33,854 nucleotides of DNA from Gemmatimonadaceae bacterium (lineage in GTDB: Bacteria; Gemmatimonadota; Gemmatimonadetes; Gemmatimonadales; Gemmatimonadaceae). The translations under genes and the position numbers were made by a program. Positions 13,849 to 33,588 of the stretch are shown here, piece after piece. The stretch spans positions 1-33,854 of the forward strand of contig DATLTC010000047.1 of NCBI GenBank assembly GCA_035533755.1, read 5' to 3'. Positions within the stretch are counted from its first letter, which is position 1, and each line of letters begins with the position of its first letter. The notes beneath the pieces are model-generated. The model was given only the letters and a program-made list of their open reading frames with translations, did no database searches and was not told the DNA's origin.

Positions 13849-14610
13849 ATGCCGATCACCATGCTCCTGTTCGCGATCGCACTCGCGCTCGTGGCTCTCT
13901 CGCTGCGCGTGGTGAAGGAATACGACCGGGGCGTCATCTTCCGGCTGGGCAAGTACACCGGCGTGCGCGGCCCGGGGCTCATCGTCCTCATCCCGGTGAT
14001 CGAGCAGATGACGCGCGCCACGTTGCGCACGATCACGATGAACATCCCCTCGCAGAAGATCATCACCAAGGACAACGTCTCCATCGACATCGCCGCGGTG
14101 GCGTACTACCACATCGTGGATCCGGCCAAATCGGTGATCGCCATCGAGAACGTGGACGCCGCCATCAATCAGATCAGCCAGACCACGGTGCGCAATGTGG
14201 TGGGCCAGTTCAGCCTCGATCAGCTGCTCTCGCAGACGCTGGACATCAACGCCCGGATCAAGGACGTCATCGACGGTCACACCGAGCCCTGGGGCGCCCA
14301 GGTCACGGCGGTGGAGATCAAGGACATCACGCTGCCCGACAACATGCAGCGCGCCATGGCCAAGGAGGCCGAGGCCGAACGCGAGCGCCGCGCCAAGATC
14401 GTCGCCGCCGAGGGCGAGTTTCAGGCGGCCGTCAAGCTGGGCGAGGCCGCCGATATCATCGCGGCGCACCCCGTGGCGCTCCAACTGCGCACCCTGCAGA
14501 CCATGGCCGAGATCAGCGTGGAGAAGAACTCCACCATCATCTTCCCGGCGCAATTCATGACCACGGTGCAGGAAGCTATGAAGATGATCCGCTCGGACGG
14601 GGCGGCCTGA
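13849..14610 (+). CDS. Slipin (SPFH/stomatin-like) membrane protein
   Basis: A 253-residue stomatin/prohibitin homologue expected to oligomerise in the membrane and organise membrane microdomains or assist proteases. It starts MPITMLLFAIALALVAL, a single N-terminal helix with little extracellular part. The SPFH domain follows: VVKEYDRGVIFRLGKYTGVRGPGL, then VSIDIAAVAYYHIVDPAKSV and an Ala/Glu/Arg-rich coiled-coil (AMAKEAEAERERRAKIVAAEG about 165-190). NfeD, the usual partner protease or anchor, is not encoded next door. ATG at 13849 was chosen since it begins the helix. The stop lies inside a hairpin, and the last 35 bases overlap the convergent DUF1697 gene. Confidence 0.93.
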   Translation: MPITMLLFAIALALVALSLRVVKEYDRGVIFRLGKYTGVRGPGLIVLIPVIEQMTRATLRTITMNIPSQKIITKDNVSIDIAAVAYYHIVDPAKSVIAIENVDAAINQISQTTVRNVVGQFSLDQLLSQTLDINARIKDVIDGHTEPWGAQVTAVEIKDITLPDNMQRAMAKEAEAERERRAKIVAAEGEFQAAVKLGEAADIIAAHPVALQLRTLQTMAEISVEKNSTIIFPAQFMTTVQEAMKMIRSDGAA

Positions 14611-15136
14611 CCGCCCCGTTGCCCAGCGCCGTGGCGATCGCGGTGATGGTATTCCAGTTGCGCGTGGTGGCCGGCACCCCGAACAGCCGGTCCACCATGC
14701 CGAGGTAGCTGATCACTTTCATGTGGCGCCGGTACACGCCGAAGACGAACCGGTTGTCCCTGGCGAGGATCTTCAGCAGCCATGTGCCGCTGGCAGGAAA
14801 GCGCATGGGCGTGGACGGCGCCGAGCGGGGGCGTCTGGACAGGACGCTCACGAATCGGACCATGTCGGGTCGCGCGGGCTGGTCAGCGAAAGGATGCTGG
14901 GCGATCAGCCCGGCGATCTCGCGTCCTTCGCATATCATGATCTCGGCGTCGAAGGGCAACCTGCGCGTCAATTCGGCGCGCAGTTGGTCCCGGGTGACGG
15001 GCCGCCGGATCACGAAGGTGCCCGCCGCGCCGATGTTCACCGCGTCGAGGTGCCTGAGCTGTTCGGCGAGCTTGGCGGGCCGGAAGGTCCTGTGACCGCC
15101 TACGTTCACCCCTCGCAGAAGAACCACGAGTGCCAT
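14576..15136 (-). CDS. DUF1697 domain protein
   Basis: A 186-residue DUF1697 protein of unknown function. Recognised from the start MALVVLLRGVNVGG, the NIGAAGTFVIRRP segment that varies from the family's NVGSGNVVF-like motif, and the end DRLFGVPATTRNWNTITAIA. It overlaps the convergent slipin gene by 35 bases at the 3' end. It lies 34 bases after the DUF5946 gene on the same strand, which in turn follows katG, so these may be one transcript. No membrane or signal segment. Confidence 0.87.
   Translation of the reverse strand: MALVVLLRGVNVGGHRTFRPAKLAEQLRHLDAVNIGAAGTFVIRRPVTRDQLRAELTRRLPFDAEIMICEGREIAGLIAQHPFADQPARPDMVRFVSVLSRRPRSAPSTPMRFPASGTWLLKILARDNRFVFGVYRRHMKVISYLGMVDRLFGVPATTRNWNTITAIATALGNGAVRPPRPSGSSS
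14597..14619. terminator. 9-bp hairpin at the slipin/DUF1697 convergent junction
   Basis: ACGGGGCGG (14597-14605) and CCGCCCCGT (14611-14619) form a perfect stem around CCTGA, which contains the slipin stop codon. There is no T-run. It may terminate slipin transcription and lies within the 3' coding part of the DUF1697 gene. Confidence 0.5.
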
Positions 15137-15170
15137 GCACTTCCCTCCTGCCGCCGGTGCGCCAACGGTG

Positions 15171-15623
15171 TCACGCCGAGCGTGCTCCGGACCTCAGGTG
15201 ATGCACCGTGGACCGGCACCACCTGTCCAGATCCACCGCGTACTCGGATGCCGCGAACTCGCCGAGGTCCGCGATGGTGACGGGGAACGGTTCGGCACCG
15301 CGCGTCGGCGGGTGATAGTCCGTGTCGGCTCCGCCTCGCCCGCGAGCACGCAGATCCCGAACCACGTAGTCGAGCGTCTCACCACGCTCGAAGACGCGCA
15401 TCAGGAACTCATAGGCGCGAGCCGCAGTCGCTGTCTCGTACCGGCCCGGATGCTGCAGGACGAAGACGGCGAACGCGAGCCCGTGACGACTGCCCCATGG
15501 CTCCTGGTGGGAGTGATCCAGGGCAAGAAGCACCTCGAACCGTTGTGCGCACGAGTCTCCTTCGTCGCTGAATCTGGCGCCGCAGTCCTCGCACACCATT
15601 CCTATCTCGCTCCCGCGCTCCAT
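15171..15623 (-). CDS. DUF5946 family protein, paralogue of 22132-22608
   Basis: About 150 residues with an N-terminal CEDCGARF Cys pair (possible metal site) and FVLQHPGRY, corresponding to the AVQHPG segment of the family. It resembles the better-conserved DUF5946 protein at 22132 in overall order: Cys pair, QHPG, then a helical C-terminus. Function unknown. Start choice is uncertain: ATG 15623 (MERGSE) or ATG 15599 (MVCEDCG), the latter closer to the usual family start. It lies 52 bases downstream of katG on the same strand. Confidence 0.7.
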
Positions 15624-15675
15624 GGTTCGAGCCACACCTCACGACGTCCGCATCCGCCCGCCGCTTCGCCCACGG

Positions 15676-17949
<2,274 letters not shown>

Positions 17950-18032
17950 CTAAGATCCCGCATGGGCGCCGGGTGGCCCGGCCGCGGACCGCGTGTTATC
18001 TGTTCGACTCGTAACCTTCGGAGTCTCCATCC

Positions 18033-20456
18033 ATGAAACGCCTGCTACTCGCCGCCGCGGCACTCGTGACGCTGGCCGCTCCCTCGCTACTCCTGGCCCA
18101 GCGGAATTCGGGCACCATCGGGCACTACATCCCGCCCCGGACCTGGCCGCAGGGCGTGCACAACTTCGACCTCGTCCACCAGAAGATCGCCGTGCAGTTC
18201 AACGAGGCCAAGCGGCTGGTGACCGGCGTGGTGACCACCACCGTCATCCCCGACGTGGCCACCGACACGGTCCGGCTCAACGCCGAGAACATCACGATCG
18301 ACCGCGCCAGCGATGCGCGGGGGCGGCAGATCAAGTTCTCGTCGGACACCGACCACGTCACCGTCCGCCTCCCGCGGCGCGTCGCCGCCGGCGACACGGT
18401 GGTCTTCACGCTCGCCTACCACACGATTCCCGAGCGCGGGATCTACTTCGTGCCCCGCCGCCACGTGATCTGGTCGCAGGGCGAAGCCACCGAGACCCGC
18501 GCCTGGGTGCCCACCTACGACTACGCCAACGACAAGACCACGTGGGAGTTCCTCGTCACCGCCGACTCGGGCCTCAAGGTGCTCTCCAACGGCACGCTGG
18601 CCTCGGTGACCCCGGTGGACGGCGGCAAGCAGAACGTCTGGCACTGGGAGCAGAACGAGAAGGCATCCACGTATCTATATAGCGTCGTGGTGGGTCCGTT
18701 CACCGTGCTCCACGACCAGTGGCGCGGCAAGCCGGTGGACGAGTACGTCTACCCCGACACCGTGGACGCGGGCTGGCGCGCGGCGGGCGAGACGCCGTCC
18801 ATGATCGAGCTGTACTCGCGCCTCACGGGAGTTCCCTTTCCGTGGGACAAGTACGACCAGTCGTGGATCCCGGATTTCACCTACGGCGGAATGGAGAACG
18901 TCTCCGCCACCACGCAGACCGATCTCTCGCTGCCGGGCGCGGGCAACGACCCCACAGAAGGCTCGCGCGGCCTCGTGGCCCATGAGCTCGCGCACCAGTG
19001 GTTCGGCGATTACGAGACCACCGCCAACTGGGCCAACGCCTGGCTCAACGAAGGACTCACCACGTACATGGAGTCGGTGCAGAACGAGAAGACCCGCGGC
19101 TGGGACGCCGCGCAGCTCGAATGGTGGGGTCAGCAGCAGCAGGCCATGCAGGCCGATCTCCGCCAGGCCCGTCCGCTGGTCTGGGGGCAGTATCAGGGCA
19201 ACGATCCGATCGCCCTCTTCTTCAGCGGCCACGTCTATCCCAAGGGCGCCCAGCTGGCGCACCAACTGCGCCGCCTGCTGGGCGACAAGATGTTCTGGGC
19301 GGGGATGCACCGCTTCCTCGTGAACAACGCCCACAAGGCCACCACCACCAAGGATTACGCCGACGCCTTCGAGGAGACCTGCCACTGCAACCTGGGCTGG
19401 TTCTTCGACCAGTGGGCATACGGAATCGGGTATCCCCAGCTCGACGTCACGCGCCGGTGGGATCCGGCGGCCAACGTCCTTCACGTGACGGTGCGGCAGG
19501 TCCAGCCCACCGATTCCACGCGGCCGCTGTTCAGGTTCCCCACCACCATCCGCGTGATCACGGCCGACTCGGTCGTGCGCGACAGCGTCATGGTCCTCGC
19601 CGAGAAGGCGCAGACCTTCAACATGCGCTTGCCGAGCGCGCCCCTGTCCTTCCGGTTCGACGAGGGGGGCTGGCTGCTCGGCACCGTGCACACCGACCAG
19701 ACGCCGGACGAGCTGGCGCACATGGCGGAGCACGACCTCGACACCTCGGCCCGCAACTGGGCGCTCCATGCCCTGGCGCAGTCGCAGGACACCGCGGCGA
19801 TTGACGCGCGGCGGTTCATCGTGCTGGATGAACGGATGCCGCAACTCCGCGCCGAGGCCCTGCGGCAGATGGCGCACGATTCCACCCCGCGGGCGATCGC
19901 GATGGTCCGCTCGGCGCTGCGCGACCCCGACGCATCCGTGCGGAGCGAGGCGCTGGTGCGGCTGGCGTCGCTCGACTCGGCGGGCGTGGCCGACACGGCG
20001 CTCGCGATGTACCACCAGGACATCTCTTCGAGCGCACGCGCCACGGCGCTCGGGGTCTACGGAAGGCTGGCCGGCGCGAGTGCACTTTCCACGGTCATCG
20101 CGGCCAGCGGACCGGCGCACACGCTCAGGGTGCGCATCACGGCGGCCGCCCTGCTGTCGCGGATGCACGTGCCGTCGGCGGTGGACGCGTTGGAACAGCT
20201 CACCAATCCGATCGAGGTGCGCGAGCTGCGCATGTCGGCGCTCCGTGGCCTGTTCGCCAGCGGCGACACCGTCCGCGCAATCGCCGTGGCCACACGAGGG
20301 CTCACCGACTACGACCCGCTGTACTCCCAGGCTTCGGTGCGCTCGCTGGGCCAACTCGGAACTCCCCAAGCGCTGGCCGTGCTCCGCACCGCGCTCAAGA
20401 CCGAGACGCGGGTGCACGTGAAGGAGGCAATGAAGCAGGCGCTCGAGAAGCGTTAG
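18033..20456 (+). CDS. Exported M1 aminopeptidase with C-terminal HEAT-like repeats
   Basis: Zinc aminopeptidase of 807 residues with a Sec signal peptide (MKRLLLAAAALVTLAAPSLL, ending near AQ). Catalytic set: GGMEN (285-289, the GAMEN exopeptidase loop), HELAH with His317, Glu318 and His321, third ligand Glu340 after exactly 18 residues, and Tyr402 in VYPKGAQ. This is the typical M1 aminopeptidase layout. Residues about 570-807 are repetitive helices with Arg/Ala/Asp-rich repeats (LRQMAHDSTPRAIAMVRSAL, LRDPDASVRSEALVRLASL), HEAT-like, in place of an ERAP1-type domain. It differs clearly from the M1 enzyme at 9053. The stop TAG overlaps the stop of the convergent DUF4173 gene. Substrate unknown. 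Confidence 0.94.
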   Translation: MKRLLLAAAALVTLAAPSLLLAQRNSGTIGHYIPPRTWPQGVHNFDLVHQKIAVQFNEAKRLVTGVVTTTVIPDVATDTVRLNAENITIDRASDARGRQIKFSSDTDHVTVRLPRRVAAGDTVVFTLAYHTIPERGIYFVPRRHVIWSQGEATETRAWVPTYDYANDKTTWEFLVTADSGLKVLSNGTLASVTPVDGGKQNVWHWEQNEKASTYLYSVVVGPFTVLHDQWRGKPVDEYVYPDTVDAGWRAAGETPSMIELYSRLTGVPFPWDKYDQSWIPDFTYGGMENVSATTQTDLSLPGAGNDPTEGSRGLVAHELAHQWFGDYETTANWANAWLNEGLTTYMESVQNEKTRGWDAAQLEWWGQQQQAMQADLRQARPLVWGQYQGNDPIALFFSGHVYPKGAQLAHQLRRLLGDKMFWAGMHRFLVNNAHKATTTKDYADAFEETCHCNLGWFFDQWAYGIGYPQLDVTRRWDPAANVLHVTVRQVQPTDSTRPLFRFPTTIRVITADSVVRDSVMVLAEKAQTFNMRLPSAPLSFRFDEGGWLLGTVHTDQTPDELAHMAEHDLDTSARNWALHALAQSQDTAAIDARRFIVLDERMPQLRAEALRQMAHDSTPRAIAMVRSALRDPDASVRSEALVRLASLDSAGVADTALAMYHQDISSSARATALGVYGRLAGASALSTVIAASGPAHTLRVRITAAALLSRMHVPSAVDALEQLTNPIEVRELRMSALRGLFASGDTVRAIAVATRGLTDYDPLYSQASVRSLGQLGTPQALAVLRTALKTETRVHVKEAMKQALEKR

Positions 20457-22051
20457 TGCGGCGTTGAACGGGGGCCGTTCGGGCCACAGGCGAGCGTTTC
20501 CAGCTCCGCCTGATGCGCCCGAACGGCCCGCGTCGCTCGACTCCGCGCCACGTTCCACTGCGTCCAGCTGCTGGACATCCGCTCCCGCTTCGCGCCCGTC
20601 CACCGCTTGAGAAGCGTTTCCGCGGCAGCGCAGCGGTCGCCTTCAGCGACTGAGTCGGCGGCGATTCCCCGCGACGTCAGCGCGGCCACCACCGCCGGGA
20701 TCGCGTCGCCGCCCAGCGAGGCCACGTACCGAAGATCCGAACCTGCCGCGCCGGTGCGCGCCGCGTCACCACGCGCGAGGTTGGCCCGCGCCACCAGCGC
20801 ATCGGGATTCAGCACATTGAGCGTGAAGAGCACGCCGAACCCGGTGGCCACGAGTCCCGCCGCAAAGGTGCGCGGGCGGGAACGCAGCACGGTGAACGCG
20901 AGCCACACGAACACCATCGCCAGCCAGATCATGAACGCCGACGCGTACAATCGGTCGGTGGAGATGCCGTAGTAGTGGATGTACAGGCTCATGCGCGCGC
21001 CGGCCGAGAGCATGATGGCGCCCAGCAGCACCACCAGCGGAACGGCAAGCCGGCGGTAGACGCGCAGCGTGCGGCCGTCCGACGCCGGAATGAGTGCGTG
21101 CGCGCCCAGGAGCACCGGGAGCAGCAGGCCGGCCACGCCCGTCAGCTCGGCGAATCCGCGTCTGGCGTAGGCGGCGTAGGTGAGGCCGGTGGTCCTGAGC
21201 ACCAGCGACTCGCCGCCGAACAGCCAGCCGATCTGCACCAACACGAACGCCGCGAACAGCACGTTCAGCGCGCCGAGTGCGAACGCCACGTCGGCGGCGC
21301 CGAGCGTGAGTGGGAGCGTCGTGGCCGGCGCGGCGCCGGCCGTGGCGGCGGTGCGCGCCAGCAGGGAGCGGCGCAACCAGCCCGCCACCACCCACGTGAA
21401 GAAGCCCGCGATGAAGACGTGGGAGAGCACGACGTCGTACTGGATGGCCGGAAGCTTGAAGAACGAGCCGAAGACCGGGTCGGCGTTCGCGAGCAGCAGT
21501 GTGAAGACCACGACGATGGGCAACGTGATCGCCACCGCCTTGCCGATGCGCCTGGCGTTGCCCTCGGCGGAGGGGCGGACGGCCGCGTTGAACTCCGCGT
21601 CGCGCAGCAACAGCGGCACGGCGCCCATGGCCACTTCGAGCCCGGTTCCGAAGGCGGCGCGGATCAGGTCGCGGACGCGGGCCAGGGCCAGACCGGGCAC
21701 GGGGATGGCGTTGATGCTCATGGCCAGCAGCACGAGCGCGGCGAGCATGGCCAGCACATCGAAGAACTGGAGCATGTCGGCGTCGCGCCACAGCGGGCCG
21801 GCGGCAGAGAGCAGAGCGACTGTGAGCCAGATGCCGCTCTCGCGCGAGAGCACTCGGCCGCTCCGCCGCACGAGCGCCGTGGCGATGCCGGCGAACGCTG
21901 CCATCCAGACCAGGAGCCCGAGGCCCCACGGACCGTTGCGGAGCAGCGGATCGGCGAGGATGCCGAGCAGGAGCGCGGCCGTGAGCGAGTGCCGCGCGAG
22001 GAGGGCGCGCGGTGATGGGTCGGCAGGGGGTGCGGAAGCCTGGAGGGGCAT
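20453..22051 (-). CDS. DUF4173 (DUF4153-like) polytopic membrane protein
   Basis: A 532-residue inner-membrane protein with about a dozen hydrophobic helices between residues 20 and 420 and a soluble Arg/Ala-rich C-terminus. The DUF4173 signature is visible: ANADPVFGSFFKLP, then GLTYAAYARRGFAELTGVAGLL and YYGISTDRLYASAFMIWLAMVF. Function unknown. The ATG at 22051 lies 80 bases after the DUF5946 stop on the same strand. The convergent M1 gene and this gene share their stop codons within TTAG at 20453-20456, with no room for a terminator between them. Confidence 0.88.
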   Translation of the reverse strand: MPLQASAPPADPSPRALLARHSLTAALLLGILADPLLRNGPWGLGLLVWMAAFAGIATALVRRSGRVLSRESGIWLTVALLSAAGPLWRDADMLQFFDVLAMLAALVLLAMSINAIPVPGLALARVRDLIRAAFGTGLEVAMGAVPLLLRDAEFNAAVRPSAEGNARRIGKAVAITLPIVVVFTLLLANADPVFGSFFKLPAIQYDVVLSHVFIAGFFTWVVAGWLRRSLLARTAATAGAAPATTLPLTLGAADVAFALGALNVLFAAFVLVQIGWLFGGESLVLRTTGLTYAAYARRGFAELTGVAGLLLPVLLGAHALIPASDGRTLRVYRRLAVPLVVLLGAIMLSAGARMSLYIHYYGISTDRLYASAFMIWLAMVFVWLAFTVLRSRPRTFAAGLVATGFGVLFTLNVLNPDALVARANLARGDAARTGAAGSDLRYVASLGGDAIPAVVAALTSRGIAADSVAEGDRCAAAETLLKRWTGAKRERMSSSWTQWNVARSRATRAVRAHQAELETLACGPNGPRSTPH

Positions 22052-22131
22052 GGCGACTCGGCGTTACATGTGCAGAGAACTTTACGTCACAAAGGTAAGT
22101 CCCGCAAGCGGCGGGCACCGCCGCCCCCGCG

Positions 22132-22608
22132 CTAGGCGCCGTGGCCGGCCCAGACCGCAACCTGCCGGTGATGGGGCGCCCAGGCCGTCCACGTGGACTC
22201 CACCCAGAACCGCGCCGCGTCGCGCAGGACGTTCACCGTCCCTTCGATGGGCATGTCGGCAACCGTGCATTCACCGCGCATGGCCGGCGGCGTGAGCCAC
22301 ACGAACGAGCCTTTCTCTCCGACCACCCGCAGCGGGGTGGCCGGGAGTCCCTCCACCAGGTAGCGGCGCATGCTCAGCAGGTGCAACGCGACGGACTGGA
22401 TGGCCTGCGGATTCGGCGTGCCGGGGTGCTGGACCGCGTAGGCATCCACGCACATCTGCCGCACGTCCTGCAGGTCCGGCCGCGTGGCGAGCCGCCCGAG
22501 CAATTCGCCGTAGCGCGCCCAGCACGCCGGGGAGGACGTCATGTATCTATGCACGGGCCCGTCCAGATCCTCGAACGCGGCGCCACAGCCGACGCAGCGA
22601 GTTTTCAT
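22132..22608 (-). CDS. DUF5946 family protein
   Basis: A 158-residue protein of unknown function with a Cys-pair start MKTRCVGCGAAFEDLDG, then HRYMTSSPACWARYGELL, VDAYAVQHPGTPNPQAIQSVALHL and a C-terminal W-rich stretch. These are the hallmarks of DUF5946; a metal site formed by the Cys and His residues is plausible but unproven. ATG 22608 matches the family's usual start. A GTG at 22647, overlapping the upstream DUF1801 stop as GTGA (22644-22647), is an alternative that would add 13 residues and couple translation. Last gene of the tight five-gene minus run. Confidence 0.83.
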   Translation of the reverse strand: MKTRCVGCGAAFEDLDGPVHRYMTSSPACWARYGELLGRLATRPDLQDVRQMCVDAYAVQHPGTPNPQAIQSVALHLLSMRRYLVEGLPATPLRVVGEKGSFVWLTPPAMRGECTVADMPIEGTVNVLRDAARFWVESTWTAWAPHHRQVAVWAGHGA

Positions 22609-22643
22609 GGACGACGTCGCGGGCGTCGTGGATTGCCGTGGCT

Positions 22644-23042
22644 TCACCGGCGGGCCTTGGACGTATTCAACGCCACGGCGGCGCGCACGAGCACCTTCAG
22701 CGCCTTCTCGTTCAGCGTCTCGCCTTCGTGCACGTCGATGGCGCGCCTGACGTTGCCGTCGAGACTGGAATTGAACAGCCCCGCCGGATCCTCGAGCGAC
22801 GCGCCCTTGGCGAAGGTCATCTTCACGACACTCTTATATGTCTCGCCGGTGCAGATGATCCCGTGGTGCTCCCACACCGGCACCCCCCGCCACTTCCATG
22901 CTTCCACCACGTCGGGATCGGCCGCCCTGATCACCGCGCGGACCCGGGCGAGCATCTGGCCGCGCCAGTCGTCCAGCTCGGCGATTCGCGCGTCGATCAG
23001 CGCCGACGCGGACGGCGCGTGCTTCGATGGGGTCTTCTTCAT
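22644..23042 (-). CDS. DUF1801 domain protein (copy 1)
   Basis: A 132-residue DUF1801 protein, a small alpha/beta fold of unknown function. Seen: a Lys-rich start, DWRGQMLARVRAVIRAADPDVVEAWKWRGVPVW, then GIICTGETYKSVVKMTFAKGASL and the C-terminal DGNVRRAIDVHEGETLNEKALKVLVRAAV. It lies 10 bases after the VOC gene. Its stop overlaps a possible GTG start of the DUF5946 gene. Two other DUF1801 members are encoded at 23948 and 29215, so the family is expanded here. Confidence 0.85.
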   Translation of the reverse strand: MKKTPSKHAPSASALIDARIAELDDWRGQMLARVRAVIRAADPDVVEAWKWRGVPVWEHHGIICTGETYKSVVKMTFAKGASLEDPAGLFNSSLDGNVRRAIDVHEGETLNEKALKVLVRAAVALNTSKARR

Positions 23043-23052
23043 CTTCCCGGCC

Positions 23053-23460
23053 TCATCGGCGTTCCTGGATCAGCTTCCACCCGTTCCCCGACGGGTCGCG
23101 GAAGCCGGCGTCCACGCTGCCGTAGCGGGCCACGGGTTCCTGTGTGAACTCCACGCCCCGCTCGCGCATCTGGTCGTAGGCGGCGCGGCAGTCGTCCACC
23201 ACCAGCACCAGCGGCGGCATCGCGCCCTTGGCCACCACGGCCTTCAGCGTCTGCGCCGTGGCCGCATCGTGCACCGGCGGGCCCGGTACGAACAGGCCCA
23301 GCTGGAACGACGGCTGGTCCGGGTGCTGCACCGTGAGCCAGCGATAGTCCCCGTTCTTCACGTCCGTGTGGACGCGGAAGCCGACCTTCTCCACGTAGAA
23401 CTCCAACGCCTCGTCCTGATCCCGCACGTATACGCCGGCCACATCCACACCCTGCGTCAT
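23053..23460 (-). CDS. VOC family protein (second)
   Basis: A 135-residue glyoxalase-fold protein: MTQGVDVAGVYVRDQDEALE then FYVEKVGF, WLTVQHPDQPSFQLGLF, VLVVDDCRAAYDQMRERGVEFTQ and the closing FRDPSGNGWKLIQ. The family includes glyoxalases, extradiol dioxygenases and drug-binding proteins; no reaction can be assigned. It is only distantly similar to the VOC protein at 13227. It lies between the AraC-type regulator gene (26 bases upstream) and a DUF1801 gene (10 bases downstream). Confidence 0.88.
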   Translation of the reverse strand: MTQGVDVAGVYVRDQDEALEFYVEKVGFRVHTDVKNGDYRWLTVQHPDQPSFQLGLFVPGPPVHDAATAQTLKAVVAKGAMPPLVLVVDDCRAAYDQMRERGVEFTQEPVARYGSVDAGFRDPSGNGWKLIQERR

Positions 23461-23486
23461 CGGATCTCCCTGTTGTCTGGACCCGT

Positions 23487-23951
23487 CTATTTAGCGCTCC
23501 CCACTCGGCGCCGCTTCTCCGAAACTGCCATCGTGAGGTGGGGCCGGTGCGCGGCGCTGTCGATGCACGCCGGCACGCGGTCGAGCCCCTGCGCCGAGGC
23601 CCTGGCGCGTGCACGGACGGCACTCGGGCTCTGGCCGGTGACGTCGCGAAAGGTGCGTCCGAACGTGCCCAGACTCCGCCAGCCCGTCTCGAACGCGATC
23701 TCGGTGATGGAACGGTCTGTGTCGCGGAGCAGCGCCGTGGCGCGTTCGATGCGCCGCGTGAGCAAGTAGCGGTGCGGCGGAACGCCGAAGGCCTGATTGA
23801 ACGATCGCGCGAAGTGGGCCTCGGACACGCCGCTCACGCGGGCCAGGCGCCCCACGGGCCAGTCCTCGTGCGAAGCGGCGTCCATGCGGTCCTTGGCGCG
23901 CAGCAGGCGGCGCAACAGCTCGGGGTCCTGGCTTGCCGGACCTCCGCTCAT
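23487..23951 (-). CDS. Short AraC-family transcriptional regulator
   Basis: A 154-residue DNA-binding protein consisting almost only of the AraC double helix-turn-helix. First HTH: WPVGRLARVSGVSEAHFARS; second: SITEIAFETGWRSLGTFGRT then FRDVTGQSPSAVR. No ligand-binding domain is present; about 40 C-terminal residues are basic and unassigned. ATG at 23951 overlaps the stop of the upstream DUF1801 gene as ATGA (23948-23951), a coupling signal. It probably regulates its own operon of VOC/DUF1801/DUF5946 genes, by inference from position. Confidence 0.88.
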   Translation of the reverse strand: MSGGPASQDPELLRRLLRAKDRMDAASHEDWPVGRLARVSGVSEAHFARSFNQAFGVPPHRYLLTRRIERATALLRDTDRSITEIAFETGWRSLGTFGRTFRDVTGQSPSAVRARARASAQGLDRVPACIDSAAHRPHLTMAVSEKRRRVGSAK

Positions 23952-24361
23952 GCCGTCCAGCCGGGGATGGCGGCCGCCTGCTGGATCCAGGTGGCCAGTT
24001 GATTCTCGTCGAGCGTGTCCGACTCGCGCACATCCAGGGAGCGCACGTTCTTGTGTTTGCCCACCGGCGGCACGGGCGTGAGCGACGTACCCTTGAAGAA
24101 GCTGAACTTCACGTGGTGCTGGAAGGCAGCGAAGGCGAGGAACCAGCCTTGCCCCTCGACGCCGTAGAATGGGCTGTGCCACTTCACGGCCTTGTGAACG
24201 CCGCGCACGTGCTTCACGACCAGCGCGTCGACGCGTTTGGCGATGGCGGCCTGCCACGGCTCCATGCTGGCGATGTAGGCCTGCACGCCAGCGTCCCCAT
24301 CGGACTTGGGTAGCACTGTGGGTTTGCGGGCCTTTGTGGAATGGCCGTTACGAGTTGGCAT
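23948..24361 (-). CDS. DUF1801 domain protein (copy 2)
   Basis: A 137-residue DUF1801 protein with a basic leader (MPTRNGHSTKARKPTVLPKS), then VQAYIASMEPWQAAIAKRVDAL, GVHKAVKWHSPFYGVEGQGWFLAF, HHVKFSFFKGTSLTPVPP and SLDVRESDTLDENQLATWIQQA. Function unknown. ATG 24361 is preferred; an in-frame start at 24397 would add 12 residues. First gene of the minus operon DUF1801, AraC, VOC, DUF1801, DUF5946, joined to the AraC gene by ATGA. Confidence 0.85.
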   Translation of the reverse strand: MPTRNGHSTKARKPTVLPKSDGDAGVQAYIASMEPWQAAIAKRVDALVVKHVRGVHKAVKWHSPFYGVEGQGWFLAFAAFQHHVKFSFFKGTSLTPVPPVGKHKNVRSLDVRESDTLDENQLATWIQQAAAIPGWTA

Positions 24362-24572
24362 GGCCGCCACGGTAGTCGATTTTCGCGGAGGCCGCAATCC
24401 GCGAGTCAGTCCGTAGCGAAACGCAGCAGGATCCTTCCGGATCGGCCGAGCCGAGCGGCGAGCGTGTGGGCAGCGGCCGGCTTAGGGTTTGCATATTGCG
24501 CCGCCCGCGACCCGGCCACAGTTTGACAGTGTGGCACGCCATTTCCGGGATCTTCCGCGCAAGGAGTATGGC

Positions 24573-25208
24573 ATGAAGCGTTTCAATATTCTGGCCCTTG
24601 GTTCTGCGTTGTGCTTGTCCGCGCCCACGGCCTTGCGCGCGCAGATGCCGGCCGCCCACCCGTCGTTTGGGGTCGTGGGCGCCCTCAACCTTGCCAGGTT
24701 TGGCGGTTCCGGCACAACGGGGATGGAGAACAAGGTCGGATACACCGCCGGAGGGTTCGTGCGCATTCCTTTGTCGCCGGCGTGGTCATTCCAACCGGAG
24801 CTCGACTACACGACCAAAGGGGTCAAGTACACCTTCGATTCCAACCAGGGCACGTACGTATCCACGCAAACGCTGCCCTACGTCGAGATGCCACTCCTGC
24901 TGCGCGTGGACGGGAACAGCGCCCGCGGCATTGGCCTGTTTGCGGAATTCGGACCCGCGCTGGCCGCCAGAGTCGGCTGCTCGATCAGCGTACGCGGCGG
25001 AGGTCTGTCGCGCTCAGGGCCGTGCGATGGATTCAGCCAGATGCGCACCTTCGACGTCGGCGCCATGGCCGGTGGCGGCATCGACCTGCCCCTGCGAGGC
25101 CACACGACGACGCTCGGCGTCCGCTACAACTACGGCCTCGCCCCCATCGCGGGGGGCAGTTCCGTCAAGAACCGCAATCTGCAGTTCCTGGCGGGTTGGC
25201 GCCCGTAG
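24573..25208 (+). CDS. Outer-membrane beta-barrel protein (porin-like)
   Basis: A 211-residue exported protein starting MKRFNILALGSALCLSAPTA and cleaving near LRAQ. The mature part has alternating aromatic/hydrophobic strands and Gly-rich turns (GGFVRIPLSPAWSFQPELDY, TTLGVRYNYGLAPI) and ends in aromatic LAGWRP, as expected for the OMP_b-brl family of 8-stranded barrels. AAGGAG at 24561-24566 is 6 bases from the ATG, the best ribosome site in the window. TTGACA at 24523-24528 may be a -35, but its -10 is weak. The function is not predictable. It is divergent from the DUF1801 operon and abuts the cassette array. Confidence 0.85.
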   Translation: MKRFNILALGSALCLSAPTALRAQMPAAHPSFGVVGALNLARFGGSGTTGMENKVGYTAGGFVRIPLSPAWSFQPELDYTTKGVKYTFDSNQGTYVSTQTLPYVEMPLLLRVDGNSARGIGLFAEFGPALAARVGCSISVRGGGLSRSGPCDGFSQMRTFDVGAMAGGGIDLPLRGHTTTLGVRYNYGLAPIAGGSSVKNRNLQFLAGWRP

Positions 25209-25235
25209 TCGCGCCGCATCCGGCCGGGCCGGCGC

Positions 25236-25427
25236 TCATTCAACTTTGACAGTCACGTTCATAGTGACTCCGTAATAGTGCGCCGTCGCTTGGATGGTTG
25301 TCGTCCCTGCCGCGACCCCGTCAACCACGCCGGTCGTAGGCCCCACGGTAGCCATGGCTGGGTTTGCCGACGTGTACGTGACGGAGTCCGTAAGCACCTT
25401 GGTGCCGCCGCAGCCAAGCCAACTCCT
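25236..25427 (-). pseudogene. 5'-truncated Ig-like (BIG2-type) protein, paralogue of 26989-27333
   Basis: Minus-strand translation gives a 60-residue stretch including DSVTYTSANPAMATVGPTTG, ending VTMNVTVKVE before TGA at 25236. It aligns end to end with the C-terminal half of the cassette protein at 26989 (DTITYASANPAIAAVDSASG ... VTMHVGITVQ). Upstream the frame is closed by TGA within 18 bases of the homology, and no start or signal peptide remains. It is probably the residue of a second Ig-like cassette, damaged by a deletion that also removed the attC site expected after hicA. Confidence 0.72.
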
Positions 25428-25497
25428 GCGTGATCATGGGAGGAGCTAATCCACGATCAGGCTGGAGGGCCAGCCCGTCACGTTTTCTAGCGAGCGC

Positions 25498-25710
25498 CTA
25501 CAGAAGATTGCGGAATTGTTCAGGCGTGAGTCCCGCATCTCGCACGATCCCACCGAGCGTGAAGGCGTTGACCGGGTTGTGGCGGGGAATCGTCACGATG
25601 CGCTGGCCGTCCGTCATCACAATATGCTTGCCTTGCCGCGCCACCCGAAAACCTGCCTTCTCCAAGGCGCGAACTGCCTCGAGGTGGTTGATGCCGGGGA
25701 TGCGTGGCAC
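25498..25710 (-). CDS. hicA: HicA-type mRNA interferase toxin
   Basis: A 70-residue toxin of the HicA family, expected to cleave mRNA when not bound by HicB. It shows the family layout: HLEAVRALEKAGFRVARQGK, the catalytic His in GKHIVMT, and VTIPRHNPVNAFTLGGIVRD then AGLTPEQF. GTG start at 25710, 3 bases after the hicB stop, so translation is linked. Antitoxin-first order is one of the two orders found in this family. It is part of the cassette array; toxin-antitoxin cassettes are common in integrons and may stabilise them. Confidence 0.9.
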   Translation of the reverse strand: MPRIPGINHLEAVRALEKAGFRVARQGKHIVMTDGQRIVTIPRHNPVNAFTLGGIVRDAGLTPEQFRNLL

Positions 25711-25713
25711 CCG

Positions 25714-25908
25714 TCACCCGACCTCAACCTCGCGCACGTCCGCGTCCCGCACGAGTTCGTCGCGGACCGCCAAGTACTCCCGGATGGCTTCGCTTACGTT
25801 GACGACGGCTTCGGCCTCGGTTGCGCCCTGGGACCAGCAACCGGGAAGACCGGGAACGGACACGCTGTACCCTTCATCCGAGTGTTGGAGCACCACCTTG
25901 TACTTCAT
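25714..25908 (-). CDS. hicB: HicB-type antitoxin
   Basis: A 64-residue partial-RNase-H-fold antitoxin: MKYKVVLQHSDEGYSVSVPG then LPGCWSQGATEAEAVVNVSEAIREYL. This is the short HicB form without an added DNA-binding domain, so any autoregulation would need another feature. GGAGG lies just before the ATG. It is the first gene after the attC-like site at 25951-26062, whose TATGAT box may provide its promoter, and it is directly upstream of hicA. Confidence 0.9.
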   Translation of the reverse strand: MKYKVVLQHSDEGYSVSVPGLPGCWSQGATEAEAVVNVSEAIREYLAVRDELVRDADVREVEVG

Positions 25909-25950
25909 ACATCCTCCGATTCTCGAAACTTACACAATGTCCGGTCGTCT

Positions 25951-26062
25951 CGCTAACGTCGCGGCGCTCTGCTGCGGCGGCTTATCATAATTGCGGCATG
26001 CGAGCGTAGCGAGCAAGCCGCCTCCCTACCCCCCCGCCGTCGGCAGCAGCGCCTCGTTAGCG
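25951..26062 (-). repeat. attC-like recombination site A
   Basis: A 112-bp imperfect palindrome. Outer boxes are CGCTAAC (25951-25957) and GTTAGCG (26056-26062). Inner arms GGCGCTCTGCTGC and GCAGCAGCGCC pair with two unpaired bases. A terminal stem-loop is built on GCGAGCG/AGCGAGC. It lies between the AbiGi-type stop (10 bases away) and hicB. It carries TATGAT on the minus strand (25984-25989), 75 bases before the hicB ATG. The core boxes deviate slightly from RYYYAAC/GTTRRRY. Confidence 0.75.
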
Positions 26063-26072
26063 GGCACGAGCC

Positions 26073-26834
26073 CTAGTAATCGGCCCTAATCCTTTCAGCT
26101 GTCGTGATTCGGGTTACAAGCGAGGCATCATTGCCTTGGAGGATCCCAGCGTCAGCAAGCCCTTCGAGTAGCGGCGGAATGTCTGCATCCGTTGCCACGA
26201 TTATGTGCGTTACGTCCTGCGGCCGAAACATCAGGCGGGAGCAAGTCGCCAAGTACGCCTCGACCGCCAAGCGAGCATTGGGATCGGCCATAGCCTCACG
26301 GCTAATGGTTGGGCAGTCCTCAATCGAGTCGGGTACGTAACGCCACTCGCGTTCGTCATAGAAGCGCGTATGGCGGATTTTCCCATCCGCCTGGCGGGCA
26401 TCGCCCTCATACGCCTTGAAGTAGTACACCAGCCGGCCCGCTTCCAGCGCATTGCGTCGCGCGGCAGGGTCAGGGTCACTCGTAACCTTGAACTTGAGTA
26501 ACAGCTTCCTATAGGCTATCAGTGCATCTAGAAGTGGCGTACCAGAGTGTCCGTATAGCACTGGTGCAATCTTACGCGCCTCGCCCCAGCCTTTCGAAAG
26601 ACCGATGGCATACTTGCCGTAGCGGTCCATGTGTTCGGTGGTCTGCGACAGCGGAATATCGCAGAAGCACACCATCGGTATCCCTGTCTCGTCACCATCC
26701 GGCGGTCCACCGAATGCTCGCGAAAGGATGTCCATGCGCTCAAACGACGGATTGACCTTGAACCCCTCGGCCAGGATGCCTCTCAGGCTCTGCAGATTCC
26801 TTGTGAAGTGGAAGAGCGACGCTGAGCTTAGCAT
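26073..26834 (-). CDS. AbiGi-type abortive-infection protein
   Basis: A 253-residue protein recognised from LFHFTRNLQSLRGILAEGF, IPMVCFCDIPLSQTTEHMDR then YGKYAIGLSKGWG, and FYDEREWRYVP. I associate these with the AbiGi family (PF10899), annotated as the antitoxin of an abortive phage-resistance system. No AbiGii toxin gene is next to it, so it may act alone or serve another purpose. ATG 26834 lies 17 bases after the GTTAGCG box of site B on the minus strand, a typical cassette-gene position; its stop is 10 bases before site A. No membrane segments. Family call moderately sure, mechanism unknown. Confidence 0.72.
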   Translation of the reverse strand: MLSSASLFHFTRNLQSLRGILAEGFKVNPSFERMDILSRAFGGPPDGDETGIPMVCFCDIPLSQTTEHMDRYGKYAIGLSKGWGEARKIAPVLYGHSGTPLLDALIAYRKLLLKFKVTSDPDPAARRNALEAGRLVYYFKAYEGDARQADGKIRHTRFYDEREWRYVPDSIEDCPTISREAMADPNARLAVEAYLATCSRLMFRPQDVTHIIVATDADIPPLLEGLADAGILQGNDASLVTRITTAERIRADY

Positions 26835-26850
26835 GGTACCTCGGGTGTCC

Positions 26851-26961
26851 CGCTAACGCCGCGGCGCTCTGCTGCGGCGTTTCATAATAGTTGCGGCCCG
26901 CGAGCGCAGCGAGCCGGCCGCTTCCAAAGCCAACGCCGACGGCAGCAGCGCCTCGTTAGGC
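26851..26961 (-). repeat. attC-like recombination site B
   Basis: A 111-bp site with outer boxes CGCTAAC (26851-26857) and GTTAGGC (26955-26961), inner arms GGCGCTCTGCTGCGGCG and CGCCGACGGCAGCAGCGCC, and the terminal stem GCGGCCCGCGAGCG/AGCGAGCCGGCCGC. The minus strand has TATTAT (26884-26889), 50 bases before the AbiGi-type ATG. It follows the Ig-like gene by 28 bases. Confidence 0.8.
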
Positions 26962-26988
26962 AGCGTGCCTGCGGCCCTCGAACGGCGA

Positions 26989-27333
26989 TCACTGCACAGT
27001 GATTCCGACATGCATGGTCACCCGGTAGTGGCGAGCCGTGACCGTAAGGCTAGTTGCACCGACGGCCTCACCCGTTACGAGCCCGCTGGCAGAATCCACC
27101 GCCGCTATGGCAGGATTCGCTGACGCATACGTGATCGTATCGGAGAGTGCTCTCGTTCCCCGGCAGCCCAATAGCGTTAGGTGGACAGGGAACTGCTGGC
27201 CCACTCGAATTGTGGTGTCTTGCGGGGTCACCCCAACCTGCAAATCCGCGTCACACGCAGGTGTAATCGCTAGGCCATTGCAGGACCAGCCAGCCACTAG
27301 GACGACCGCTAGAATCGCAACGCCGCGCGCCAT
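26989..27333 (-). CDS. Small exported Ig-like (BIG2-type) domain protein in a cassette
   Basis: A 114-residue protein with an N-terminal signal (MARGVAILAVVLVAGWSC; the Cys might be lipidated but the lipobox is poor) and one bacterial Ig-like domain: VTPQDTTIRVGQQFPVHLTL, then YASANPAIAAVDSASGLVTG and EAVGATSLTVTA. Such domains usually mediate binding or act as spacers; alone, the role is unknown. The ATG lies 30 bases after the GTTAGGC box of site C on the minus strand. A truncated paralogue is at 25236. Base composition is less GC-rich than neighbouring chromosomal genes. Confidence 0.8.
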   Translation of the reverse strand: MARGVAILAVVLVAGWSCNGLAITPACDADLQVGVTPQDTTIRVGQQFPVHLTLLGCRGTRALSDTITYASANPAIAAVDSASGLVTGEAVGATSLTVTARHYRVTMHVGITVQ

Positions 27334-27362
27334 GGTTCGATCTCCGGCAAGCCTCCGTCGCT

Positions 27363-27473
27363 GCCTAACGCCGCGGCGCTCTGCTGCGGCGTTTCCTAAT
27401 AATGGCGGCAGGCGCCCGCAGGGCGCCAGCCGCTACCCTAGCCCACGCCGACGGCAGCAGCGCCAAGTTAGGT
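27363..27473 (-). repeat. attC-like recombination site C
   Basis: A 111-bp site with consensus boxes GCCTAAC (27363-27369, RYYYAAC) and GTTAGGT (27467-27473, GTTRRRY). Inner arms are GGCGCTCTGCTGCGGCG and CGCCGACGGCAGCAGCGCC, and the terminal stem is GGCGCCCGCAGGGCGCC. The best preserved of the three. An AT-rich patch with CATTAT on the minus strand (27399-27404) is 66 bases before the Ig-like ATG. It lies 7 bases after the small membrane-protein stop. Confidence 0.82.
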
Positions 27474-27480
27474 GGCACGG

Positions 27481-27645
27481 TCAGAGGCGCTCGCGTGAGG
27501 CCACGGCCTCAAGGGTGCGTGCGATCCGATCGAGAGCTTTGCGAATCGCGACGATCTGAACGACAGTCCAGATGGCCGCGACGGCCGGGGTGATCGCCAG
27601 AAGCAGCATGAGCACGAATTGGACTGCGCCGAAGCTCTCAAACAT
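27481..27645 (-). CDS. 54-residue single-helix membrane protein in a cassette
   Basis: Short gene starting ATG at 27645: MFESFGAVQFVLMLLLAITP, a helix continuing AVAAIWTVVQIVAI, then an amphipathic basic tail RKALDRIARTLEAVASRERL. The layout resembles many tiny bacterial inner-membrane proteins. Function unknown. The stop is 7 bases before the GTTAGGT box of site C, and the start is 32 bases after the GTTAGAT box at 27678-27684, exactly a cassette layout. GAGG lies about 10 bases upstream of the ATG. An overlapping longer minus-strand frame (27468-27689) has a Ser/Pro/Arg-rich translation and was judged a shadow. Confidence 0.68.
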   Translation of the reverse strand: MFESFGAVQFVLMLLLAITPAVAAIWTVVQIVAIRKALDRIARTLEAVASRERL

Positions 27646-28020
27646 AGGCCGGCATCCTCACGCGGTTGTCCGGTGCCATCTAACTTCAATTTATGAAGTC
27701 ATGTTATGCTGCGAGCCCGCGCAAACTACAGCACGCTCTCGCAGCCTATTGTGTACCGCCCCCACCCACCAAGCAAGCCACGCGCCACGACGACACCACA
27801 TTAGACACATTAGAATCCAGCCCCCCCGCGCGTTACGCTGCAAGGACTTGCTGCATAACACGCACCGGTCACCCGCCGCGGGCCGAGCGTCCCCCAAGGC
27901 CCGTCCCGAGCCCTGAATGCGGGACAGCGCCCTATCTGTCCGATGAACAACCCTCTGTGGGCCCGTCGCTCCATCGTCCGCCAGTCCACCCCGGAGCGCG
28001 CCACCCCTCCCGCCACGATC
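27646..28020. other. Gene-free stretch at the head of the cassette array, with a GTTAGAT core box
   Basis: No convincing gene. ATCTAAC on the plus strand (27678-27684; GTTAGAT on the minus) matches the GTTRRRY box and marks the first cassette boundary. Beside it are ACTTCA/TGAAGT around a 5-base loop and the 8-base inverted repeat GCTGCGAG/CTCGCAGC. This could be a degraded attC or an attI-like entry site. The part 27684-27850 is AT-richer than the surroundings. No integrase gene is in or beside it. Confidence 0.5.
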
Positions 28021-29130
28021 TCAATCACGCCCAGCCGGGCGCCCCTTGGCGGACGCGGGCCCGGCACGCCATCCCGCGAAATCCTCGAGCACGTCGTCGG
28101 ACATGGCCGCCGCCGCGCGCACGAGCCAGTTCTTCGGGCGACGCTCGAGGTCGGCGAGCAGGGTGCGCGCACTCGCGCTCCCCAGATGGACGTTGGCGGT
28201 CTCCCACCCCATGGCGTGGAGCAGGTGTCGTTCGCTGCGGTCGCGCGGAAGACTCGCGAGTTCGATCCGCGAGCAGTCGGGCGCCAGCCGGCGGGCGATC
28301 CACCCCTCGTGGACGGTGACGAACGGATCGGCGCATCGCACCGCCCTGTCGAGCGCCGTCGCATACAGCGTCCGACCGACGCGCCGACTGCCCGACGCCC
28401 ACGCGGCCGCCGACACGGCCAGTCCCTTGGCCTCACGCGCGATGCGGCCGCCGCGCCAATCGGCCAGCGCCACGAATCGTTGGCGGCCCAGGCTGCCCAC
28501 TCCGGCAATCCGGTGCGCTACGCGCCATGGGAGAGCGCGTGATGGCCAGAGCTTGGCCAGCGCCGAGCGTGCTTCGCGCGGGAGCACACCGCGCATAGGC
28601 GTCGCCGCGTCGAGCTTCGCCCAGAACTCCTCGGGATTGCGCAAACGCGACACCGCAATCTTTCGCAGCGCGTGGTGCCGCTCGGCGAGCACCACGGGCT
28701 GCCCCCCCGCGGCGAGCGACTCGCGGTAGCCGGAAAGGAGGATCGTCGTCGCATCCTTGATGCCGAGCCGCAAATCCGACGCGTCGGCCGCGAGCGCGAC
28801 GCTCACCGCCAGACGCACGAGGTCGTTGGTGTACGGCAGGCGCCACACCTCGTCGAAGTCGTTGATGCCCCACACCAGCCGACCTTCGGCGTCGCGCCAG
28901 GTGCCGAAGTTCTCCACGTGCAGATCGCCCACTGCCAGCACCACCGGTGCGTCGAGCAGGTCGCGACAGGTGGCCGGCCAGCGTTGCGCCCACCGGAAGT
29001 AGGTGCCGCGGAGAAAGGGGAAGGCGCCTTCGCGCATTAGCCGGTGCTTGATGATGAGATCGGCCGCGATGAGAGGCAGGCGCCCGCCCAGCCAGCGCTC
29101 GTAATCGGCAACGGCATGATGAATGTTCAT
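28021..29130 (-). CDS. DUF2252 family protein
   Basis: A 369-residue DUF2252 protein, a kinase-like fold of uncertain activity. Seen: YFRWAQRWPATCRDLLDAPV, VLAVGDLHVENFGTWRDAEG, WGINDFDEVWRLPYTNDLVR, then a basic middle region and RHLLHAMGWETANVHLGSA. GDLHVENFG and DFDE match positions of catalytic-loop and metal-binding motifs in aminoglycoside-phosphotransferase-like kinases, so a phosphotransferase is possible. It is shorter than many members (about 400-450). ATG at 29130. The DUF1801 gene lies 84 bases upstream on the same strand. Confidence 0.85.
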   Translation of the reverse strand: MNIHHAVADYERWLGGRLPLIAADLIIKHRLMREGAFPFLRGTYFRWAQRWPATCRDLLDAPVVLAVGDLHVENFGTWRDAEGRLVWGINDFDEVWRLPYTNDLVRLAVSVALAADASDLRLGIKDATTILLSGYRESLAAGGQPVVLAERHHALRKIAVSRLRNPEEFWAKLDAATPMRGVLPREARSALAKLWPSRALPWRVAHRIAGVGSLGRQRFVALADWRGGRIAREAKGLAVSAAAWASGSRRVGRTLYATALDRAVRCADPFVTVHEGWIARRLAPDCSRIELASLPRDRSERHLLHAMGWETANVHLGSASARTLLADLERRPKNWLVRAAAAMSDDVLEDFAGWRAGPASAKGRPAGRD

Positions 29131-29214
29131 GAAGGGAGATCATCGCATCCCGCGCCGCGGGCCGCCAGACGCGATGGCCCAGGCCCTCGCGCTCCAACGG
29201 CGCTCGTCGTCCCT

Positions 29215-29607
29215 CTATGCTCTCACCCTCTTCCGTCTCGCGGCGGCCCGAGCGCGGTCCTGCTTGACCCGTAAGCGGACGATCCGCGTGATGAGGGCAT
29301 ACGGAATGGGTTGATCGAGCGGGAACCGGAGATTGCCCTTGGGGCCGGCGTAGGGTGCGAGTGCCTTGGCGAGCCTCGCGTCGCGGGCAACCGGGGGGAA
29401 GAGTCCGATGTGGTGTTTGAAGACGCCAACGTACAGGAGAATGCCGTGCTGCCGGAATGCCGGCATGCGGTAGCTGATGATCTCCTTGGCCTCCGGCGCG
29501 GCGGCCGCGATCGCGCGTCGTATCTTCTTCAGAATCGGTTGGACCTCGACGCGTGCGGCGGCGATGTACGCGTCGATGCTGGCCGGTGGTGATTTGCGAG
29601 CGTCCAT
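29215..29607 (-). CDS. DUF1801 domain protein (copy 3)
   Basis: A 130-residue DUF1801 protein: IDAYIAAARVEVQPILKKIR, EAKEIISYRMPAFRQHGILL, YVGVFKHHIGLFPP and FPLDQPIPYALITRIVRLRV then a basic tail KQDRARAAARRKRVRA. YRMPAF and IGLFPP are the classic family motifs, better conserved here than in the copies at 22644 and 23948. Function unknown. ATG 29607. It lies upstream of DUF2252 on the same strand with an 84-base gap. Confidence 0.88.
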   Translation of the reverse strand: MDARKSPPASIDAYIAAARVEVQPILKKIRRAIAAAAPEAKEIISYRMPAFRQHGILLYVGVFKHHIGLFPPVARDARLAKALAPYAGPKGNLRFPLDQPIPYALITRIVRLRVKQDRARAAARRKRVRA

Positions 29608-29652
29608 TGCATCCCGCCTTGGCTACGTCCTCTGGAATCGGGGTCTCGAACG

Positions 29653-33511: not shown

Positions 33512-33588
33512 CGCGGACGCCGCGGCGTTCTGCGGCGGCCTTCTATCATAGTTGCCGCCCGCGAGCGCCGCGAGCCGGCCGCTTCCTT
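33512..33588 (-). repeat. Decayed attC-like site with a promoter-like box
   Basis: The minus strand reads GGAAGCGGCCGGCTCGCGGC, GCTCGCGGGCGGCAACTATG, ATAGAAGG and CGCCGCAGAACGCCGCGGCG, closely following site B (26851-26961). The core box is mutated: GTCCGCG where site B has GTTAGCG. The distal half with the other box is absent. TATGAT (33545-33550) is 85 bases before the ATG at 33460. Confidence 0.6.

Follow-up and report, generated by a model that had tools for sequence, protein, structure and literature searches.

The stretch of DNA analysed here (the window), which is one entire contig of 33.9 kb from a draft genome of about 3.25 Mb in 103 contigs, probably represents a satellite array of a distributed chromosomal integron, i.e., an attI site followed by gene cassettes, on which an integrase (IntI) would act in trans. 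Under this reading, the cassettes would arrive as circles, and the folded single-stranded attC site would be recombined with the GTT core of attI by an IntI made elsewhere in the cell, so that new genes would enter at position 27684 and push the older cassettes away. One intI gene would thus serve several attI platforms across the chromosome in this lineage of the Gemmatimonadota. The proposed recombination between attI and attC at the window is suggested by comparative signatures, and the site may still be in use at the present day.

Reading the minus strand from 27879 to 25237, the attI site is followed by the gene of a 54-aa protein, attC A, a Big_2 gene, attC B, an AbiGi gene, attC C, the HicBA genes and a truncated Big_2-type gene. 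The features of the window are:

27676..27879, minus strand: attI-like site of about 204 bp at the head of the array, with no adjoining integrase gene (attI model and BLAST)
27678..27684, minus strand: crossover core GTTAGAT, the end of attI and start of cassette 1, where the homology among the attI copies stops
27683-27369: cassette 1, 315 bp, cut at G^TT
27481..27645, minus strand: cassette 1 gene, small membrane-type protein of 54 aa (open reading frame)
27363..27473, minus strand: attC site A, 111 bp
27368-26857: cassette 2, 512 bp, cut at G^TT
26989..27333, minus strand: cassette 2 gene, exported Big_2 (Ig-like) protein of 114 aa (PF02368, E 9.6e-8)
26851..26961, minus strand: attC site B, 111 bp, its R'' fitting the lead of its own cassette at 4/4 bases and that of the next at 2/4
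26856-25957: cassette 3, 900 bp, cut at G^TT
26073..26834, minus strand: cassette 3 gene, AbiGi-type, 253 aa (PF10899, E 2.1e-27; PADLOC AbiGi, E 1.6e-38)
25951..26062, minus strand: attC site C, 112 bp, its R'' fitting the lead of its own cassette at 4/4 bases
25714..25908, minus strand: HicB-like antitoxin of the cassette 4 remnant (PF15919, E 1.7e-8)
25498..25710, minus strand: HicA toxin of the cassette 4 remnant (PF07927, E 4.1e-10)
25420..25491, minus strand: 72-bp 3' end of the HicBA cassette, 94% identical to contig C19 of the relative G206
25237..25390, minus strand: 3' fragment of a second Big_2-type cassette gene, its attC lost, at the distal end of the array (compared by eye with cassette 2)
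33517..33588, minus strand: half of a decayed attC, with R' mutated and L''/R'' gone (profile match, E 2e-10)

Long identical arms are common to the three attC sites, together with inverted R''/R' and L''/L' boxes and 5'-AAC ... GTT-3' ends, and the fold of the plus strand (the attC bottom strand) has, in all three, long arms with two single-base bulges in the L'' arm. The energy of the folds is not decisive by itself (z = -3.1, -1.0 and -2.1 for sites A, B and C), being unusual only for site A and, weakly, for site C, and weak for site B. An earlier sequence-only reading had described three sites of 111-112 bp and cassettes of about 315, 512 and 900 bp, and these lengths were recovered. Its inverted boxes ending in AAC and GTT were also found, but the R' boxes are GTTAGGC, GTTAGCG and GTTAGCG, two of which depart from the strict GTTRRRY motif. 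The GTTRRRY-type box from which it began cassette 1 is present, but forms the end of a full attI (27879-27676) that had been missed, while the HicBA genes that it counted in the array are indeed cassette-derived, but constitute a remnant, with no attC behind them. Its general description of the array as CALIN-like, that is, as two or more attC sites with their cassettes that no intI adjoins, in the terms of IntegronFinder (PMC9024848), is supported by the three attC sites and the lack of an intI beside them, and is incomplete in respect of the attI head, the unproven absence of intI from the own genome and the attI-headed arrays of the relatives. The cassette 1 protein had no match in Pfam, NCBIfam or PADLOC.

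The window sites are confirmed as true attC sites. They are 84-93% identical (maximum 92.6%) to attC1, which lies beside a true intI in G206, a genome of the same genus, and all three are matched by an attC covariance model built from 13 sites of the family. As the window sites are among these 13, their own scores (104-107 bits) are circular; a site of genome G205, on which the model was not trained, scores 103 bits. The model matches 130 of the 179 genomes of the family, with exactly three sites in the own genome, the same number in G205 and ten in G206 (weak matches included), and the search for further attC sites that had been proposed thus recovered only those of the window in the 103-contig assembly. 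The gene content is non-syntenic in the relatives, and not a conserved order lacking variation in the sites. A match with three mismatches at position 7263 of the own contig C86 was not accepted as an attC, and Rfam provided no match at its gathering cut-offs, and below them a single chance-level sRNA match.

A test that is independent of the model score compared the pairing of R'' with the leading bases of its own cassette and with those of the next cassette, given that R'' is expected to pair with its own lead where cassettes travel as circles. Among 42 consecutive cassettes from 12 loci, R'' fitted its own lead better in 26 cases and the next lead better in three, the other 13 being ties, a result that not one of 20,000 permutations equalled. 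In the window, each R'' box that could be tested pairs with the lead of its own cassette.

In G206, the stretch that separates intI from its first cassette is homologous to the head of the array, the 200 bp ahead of cassette 1. By BLAST, the window attI is 60-71% identical to the attI copies of its congeners over 180-220 bp, the intI-linked copy included, and all the genus copies compared start at about the same point, 4-10 bp past the stop of the G206 intI, and extend to the GTT core. A sequence model built from five attI copies of the genus matches the window attI at 148.7 bits (E 1.8e-43), a score to be read with the presence of this copy in the training set, and places an attI right after intI in G134, a genome outside the training set. 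Strong matches number one in the own genome, one in G204 and three in G206 (one of them beside intI), and none was found in G205 with the genus model. Weak matches outside the two genera discussed here (e.g., G103 and G188) were not relied on. A further route, in which IntI inserted the cassettes at a chance attG-like site and not at an attI, is a known origin of CALINs (PMC8618304), but is scarcely credible here, given that about 200 bp upstream of the core are homologous to the intI-linked attI, far beyond what a chance core would share.

The fit of the first cassette to the window attI is 3/4, and is likewise imperfect (2/4) at G206 C19 and at the orphan attI of G145. For the promoter Pc, a search of 25200-28100 that covered sigma-70 promoters alone gave no consensus match. 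The attI copies (for example, L117 9393-9188, minus strand) also present an inverted pair at each end, such as TTAGACTGCA-TGCAGTCTAA at the 5' end, and these pairs are possibly two integrase dimer sites, which could bear on the copying of the module.

It is firm that the window attI has no adjacent intI. Its upstream neighbour, where intI would adjoin, is a DUF2252 gene, and tblastn detected neither an intI nor a trace of one in the window contig. No IntI was found in the rest of the own assembly, where the matches to TIGR02249 were rejected as IntI, being Xer-type recombinases far under the IntI cut-off. In G206, the complete integron has the order fhs, intI (TIGR02249 409.7 bits, cut-off 265), attI and attC1, followed by the end of the contig inside a second attC. 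In the own genome, contig C61 ends within fhs, at residue 393, and an intI beside fhs is therefore possible there; the intI of the host is either lost or inside an unassembled gap. Of the genome-wide search for intI proposed beforehand, the lack of an adjacent gene stands, but absence from the whole genome is unproven, as the position of the intI of the sister genome falls in an assembly gap. The truncation of fhs, beside which intI lies in G206, and the draft state of the 103-contig assembly would also suit an assembly artefact, in which an intI that belongs beside the window attI was misplaced or the contig is chimeric; such an artefact is highly improbable, since DUF2252, attI and the cassettes are contiguous in the 33.9-kb contig and the same arrangement occurs in single-contig genomes.

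Copies of attI without an integrase were also found in two congeners, on contigs C255 of G204 and C19 of G206. The two contigs have an L,D-transpeptidase-attI locus in common (76.6% identity over 2.4 kb), and this homology stops at the attI core, with 50 of 60 positions identical to its left and 16 of 60 to its right. Beyond the core, G204 carries a trypsin-like protease, and G206 a HigBA pair with an attC and an acetyltransferase (names read from the sequence). Homology that ends at the core and is followed by different genes is the pattern that insertion at an integrase-less attI would leave. No intI was detected in the G204 draft, and the intI of G206 lies elsewhere in that genome. A trypsin-like protease is the first gene past attI-like sites in two genera (at the contig start of L072 and around 1740-2540 of L100).

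The design recurs in G145, G146 and G147, single-contig genomes of another genus of the same family, each of which has one intI at E <= 1e-40. In G147, the one intI coexists with five attI sites and 17 attC sites; one attI lies beside intI, three head same-strand attC arrays, at a distance of about 0.4-1 kb from the first attC downstream, and no attC was detected near the fifth. The orphan arrays lie 0.34-3.9 Mb from intI along the listed coordinates, although the farthest of them (3.9 Mb) would be about 0.8 Mb away if the 4.72-Mb chromosome is circular, and the R'' of their first cassettes fits the tails of the orphan attI sites at 4/4 bases, with three different tails. G145 carries a single orphan attI-headed array besides its intI. 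In G146, there are two orphan attI-headed sites, and three of the five clusters or single sites distant from intI have no recognised attI; as the 65% likeness of one of these orphan attI sites to the intI-linked attI is about that of a gapped alignment of unrelated sequences, this orphan attI rests mainly on its position and core.

Cassettes common to two arrays were found in both genomes, one at the intI-linked attI and at this orphan attI of G146 (96.4% identity over 783 bp) and one in the intI array and an orphan array of G147 (97.3% over 634 bp), which could also reflect two independent captures or homologous recombination. A 1.2-kb match of 99.9% between two G146 arrays was rejected as a cassette exchange, since its sequence seems to encode a transposase of the IS110 type; a near-identical duplication of 2.7 kb in G160, which contains an inserted recombinase-like gene, was likewise not used as evidence. 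The copies of an IS110-type element, 99.9% identical, lie at an orphan attI core (L122 7877-8935) and at an attC end (L053 from 15691), and these exact positions suggest that the element targets integron recombination sites.

Across the second genus, attI matches occur in 24 of 30 genomes, up to about eight in each, and the attI model of this genus finds an attI beside intI at ten places in draft genomes on which it was not trained. Among 62 stronger matches in the drafts, 11 are beside intI and 51 away from it, an orphan count inflated by contig ends; of the latter 51, at least 15 have an attC on their own strand no more than 4 kb away, and none has one on the opposite strand among the attC sites listed. 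In every Gemmatimonadales intI locus with attC that was examined (L039, L053, L055, L058, L059, L117 and L123), intI is transcribed toward the cassettes, i.e., in the inverse orientation. Given that the same design is repeated around the chromosome in the closed relatives, a single integrase may be able to serve several docking sites. We lean towards the view that a single IntI serves dispersed attI platforms, each with an array of its own, and that the attI of about 200 bp is a unit copied without intI, which would have spread as such.

The window array is partly decayed at its distal end, where two attC sites have been lost. The 72-bp sequence behind HicBA runs directly into an attC in G206 C19, and this attC is absent from the window, so that the HicBA unit is read as a cassette remnant. 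The same 72 bp lie at the 3' ends of three unrelated toxin-antitoxin-like pairs (window 25491-25420, minus strand; L095 8588-8517; L077 3257-3329), which are HicBA in the window, HigBA in G206 and a DUF4258/DUF2283-like pair in the own contig C86. The half-attC at 33588-33517 is found 5.6 kb upstream of attI, before a small membrane-protein gene (33460-33029), and the genes near it may be former cassettes without attC. DUF1801, DUF1697 and VOC-type genes occur in blocks that L096 (contig C6 of G206) and the window at 14583-29627 have in common, but in a different order, and attC relics lie between these blocks in G206.

This decay counts in favour of the main rival explanation, that of an ordinary degraded integron, in which an intI once adjacent to attI has been deleted on the spot, leaving the array as a static relic. 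The loss of distal attC sites, the half-attC and the lack of an intI in the own assembly favour it, and both Treponema and Xanthomonas provide known cases of intI loss with arrays or remnants kept (PMC3607928, PMC12444791). We consider it unlikely nonetheless, given that the window contains no remnant of intI, that the genus attI copies share a start just past the intI stop, that both G206 and the closed genomes have orphan attI sites alongside an intact intI at another locus, and that the G147 first cassettes fit exactly. The reading of the window as a satellite array, which we prefer, has points against it as well, i.e., the decayed distal end, the imperfect 3/4 fit of the first cassette, the attI-less orphan clusters of G146, and the own assembly without a detected intI, so that the supply in trans is presumed for this host.

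With regard to known systems, the array of the window is by definition a CALIN, with three attC sites and no intI beside them (PMC9024848), but keeps a full attI head, and the arrays of the closed relatives, which coexist with one detected intI and have exactly fitted cassettes, are not simply debris. It has the attI head of a complete integron, without the integrase gene at the locus. The sedentary chromosomal integron of Treponema (PMC3607928) is similar in its attI, in attC sites that are alike within the genome, in one-gene cassettes and in the toxin-antitoxin and small exported proteins; the Treponema intI is codirectional with the cassettes, and the intI of the relatives likewise points toward the array. 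On the other hand, the window lacks intI, and the relatives have several attI platforms, whereas a single one is assumed for an integron.

The nearest precedent found is the Shewanella prophage M16-3, which carries an integron and a CALIN, each with an attI (PMC9892861). This is a single prophage case with an attI match of 28 bp, whereas the arrays described here are chromosomal and recur in two genera, where a genome may have as many as about eight attI matches. In Xanthomonas, CALINs away from ilvD occupy fixed chromosomal loci far from intI in about half of the genomes, and the parts consulted of that source report no attI head for them (PMC12444791), unlike the attI-headed array of the window. 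A review attributes the origin of CALINs to off-target insertion, to the loss of intI or to rearrangement, and lists the Gemmatimonadota among the integron-bearing phyla (PMC8618304). In the open-access literature, no account was found either of attI platforms dispersed in this way or of the structure of Gemmatimonadota integrons.

The window alone is a modest, partly decayed example, and its interest lies in the lineage-wide pattern, from which it follows as a rule of annotation that attI should be searched for upstream of CALINs. Should a single integrase supply several attI platforms, arrays that now pass for dead CALINs may be live, the question of the origin of CALINs becomes testable, and several loci could capture and express cassettes simultaneously.
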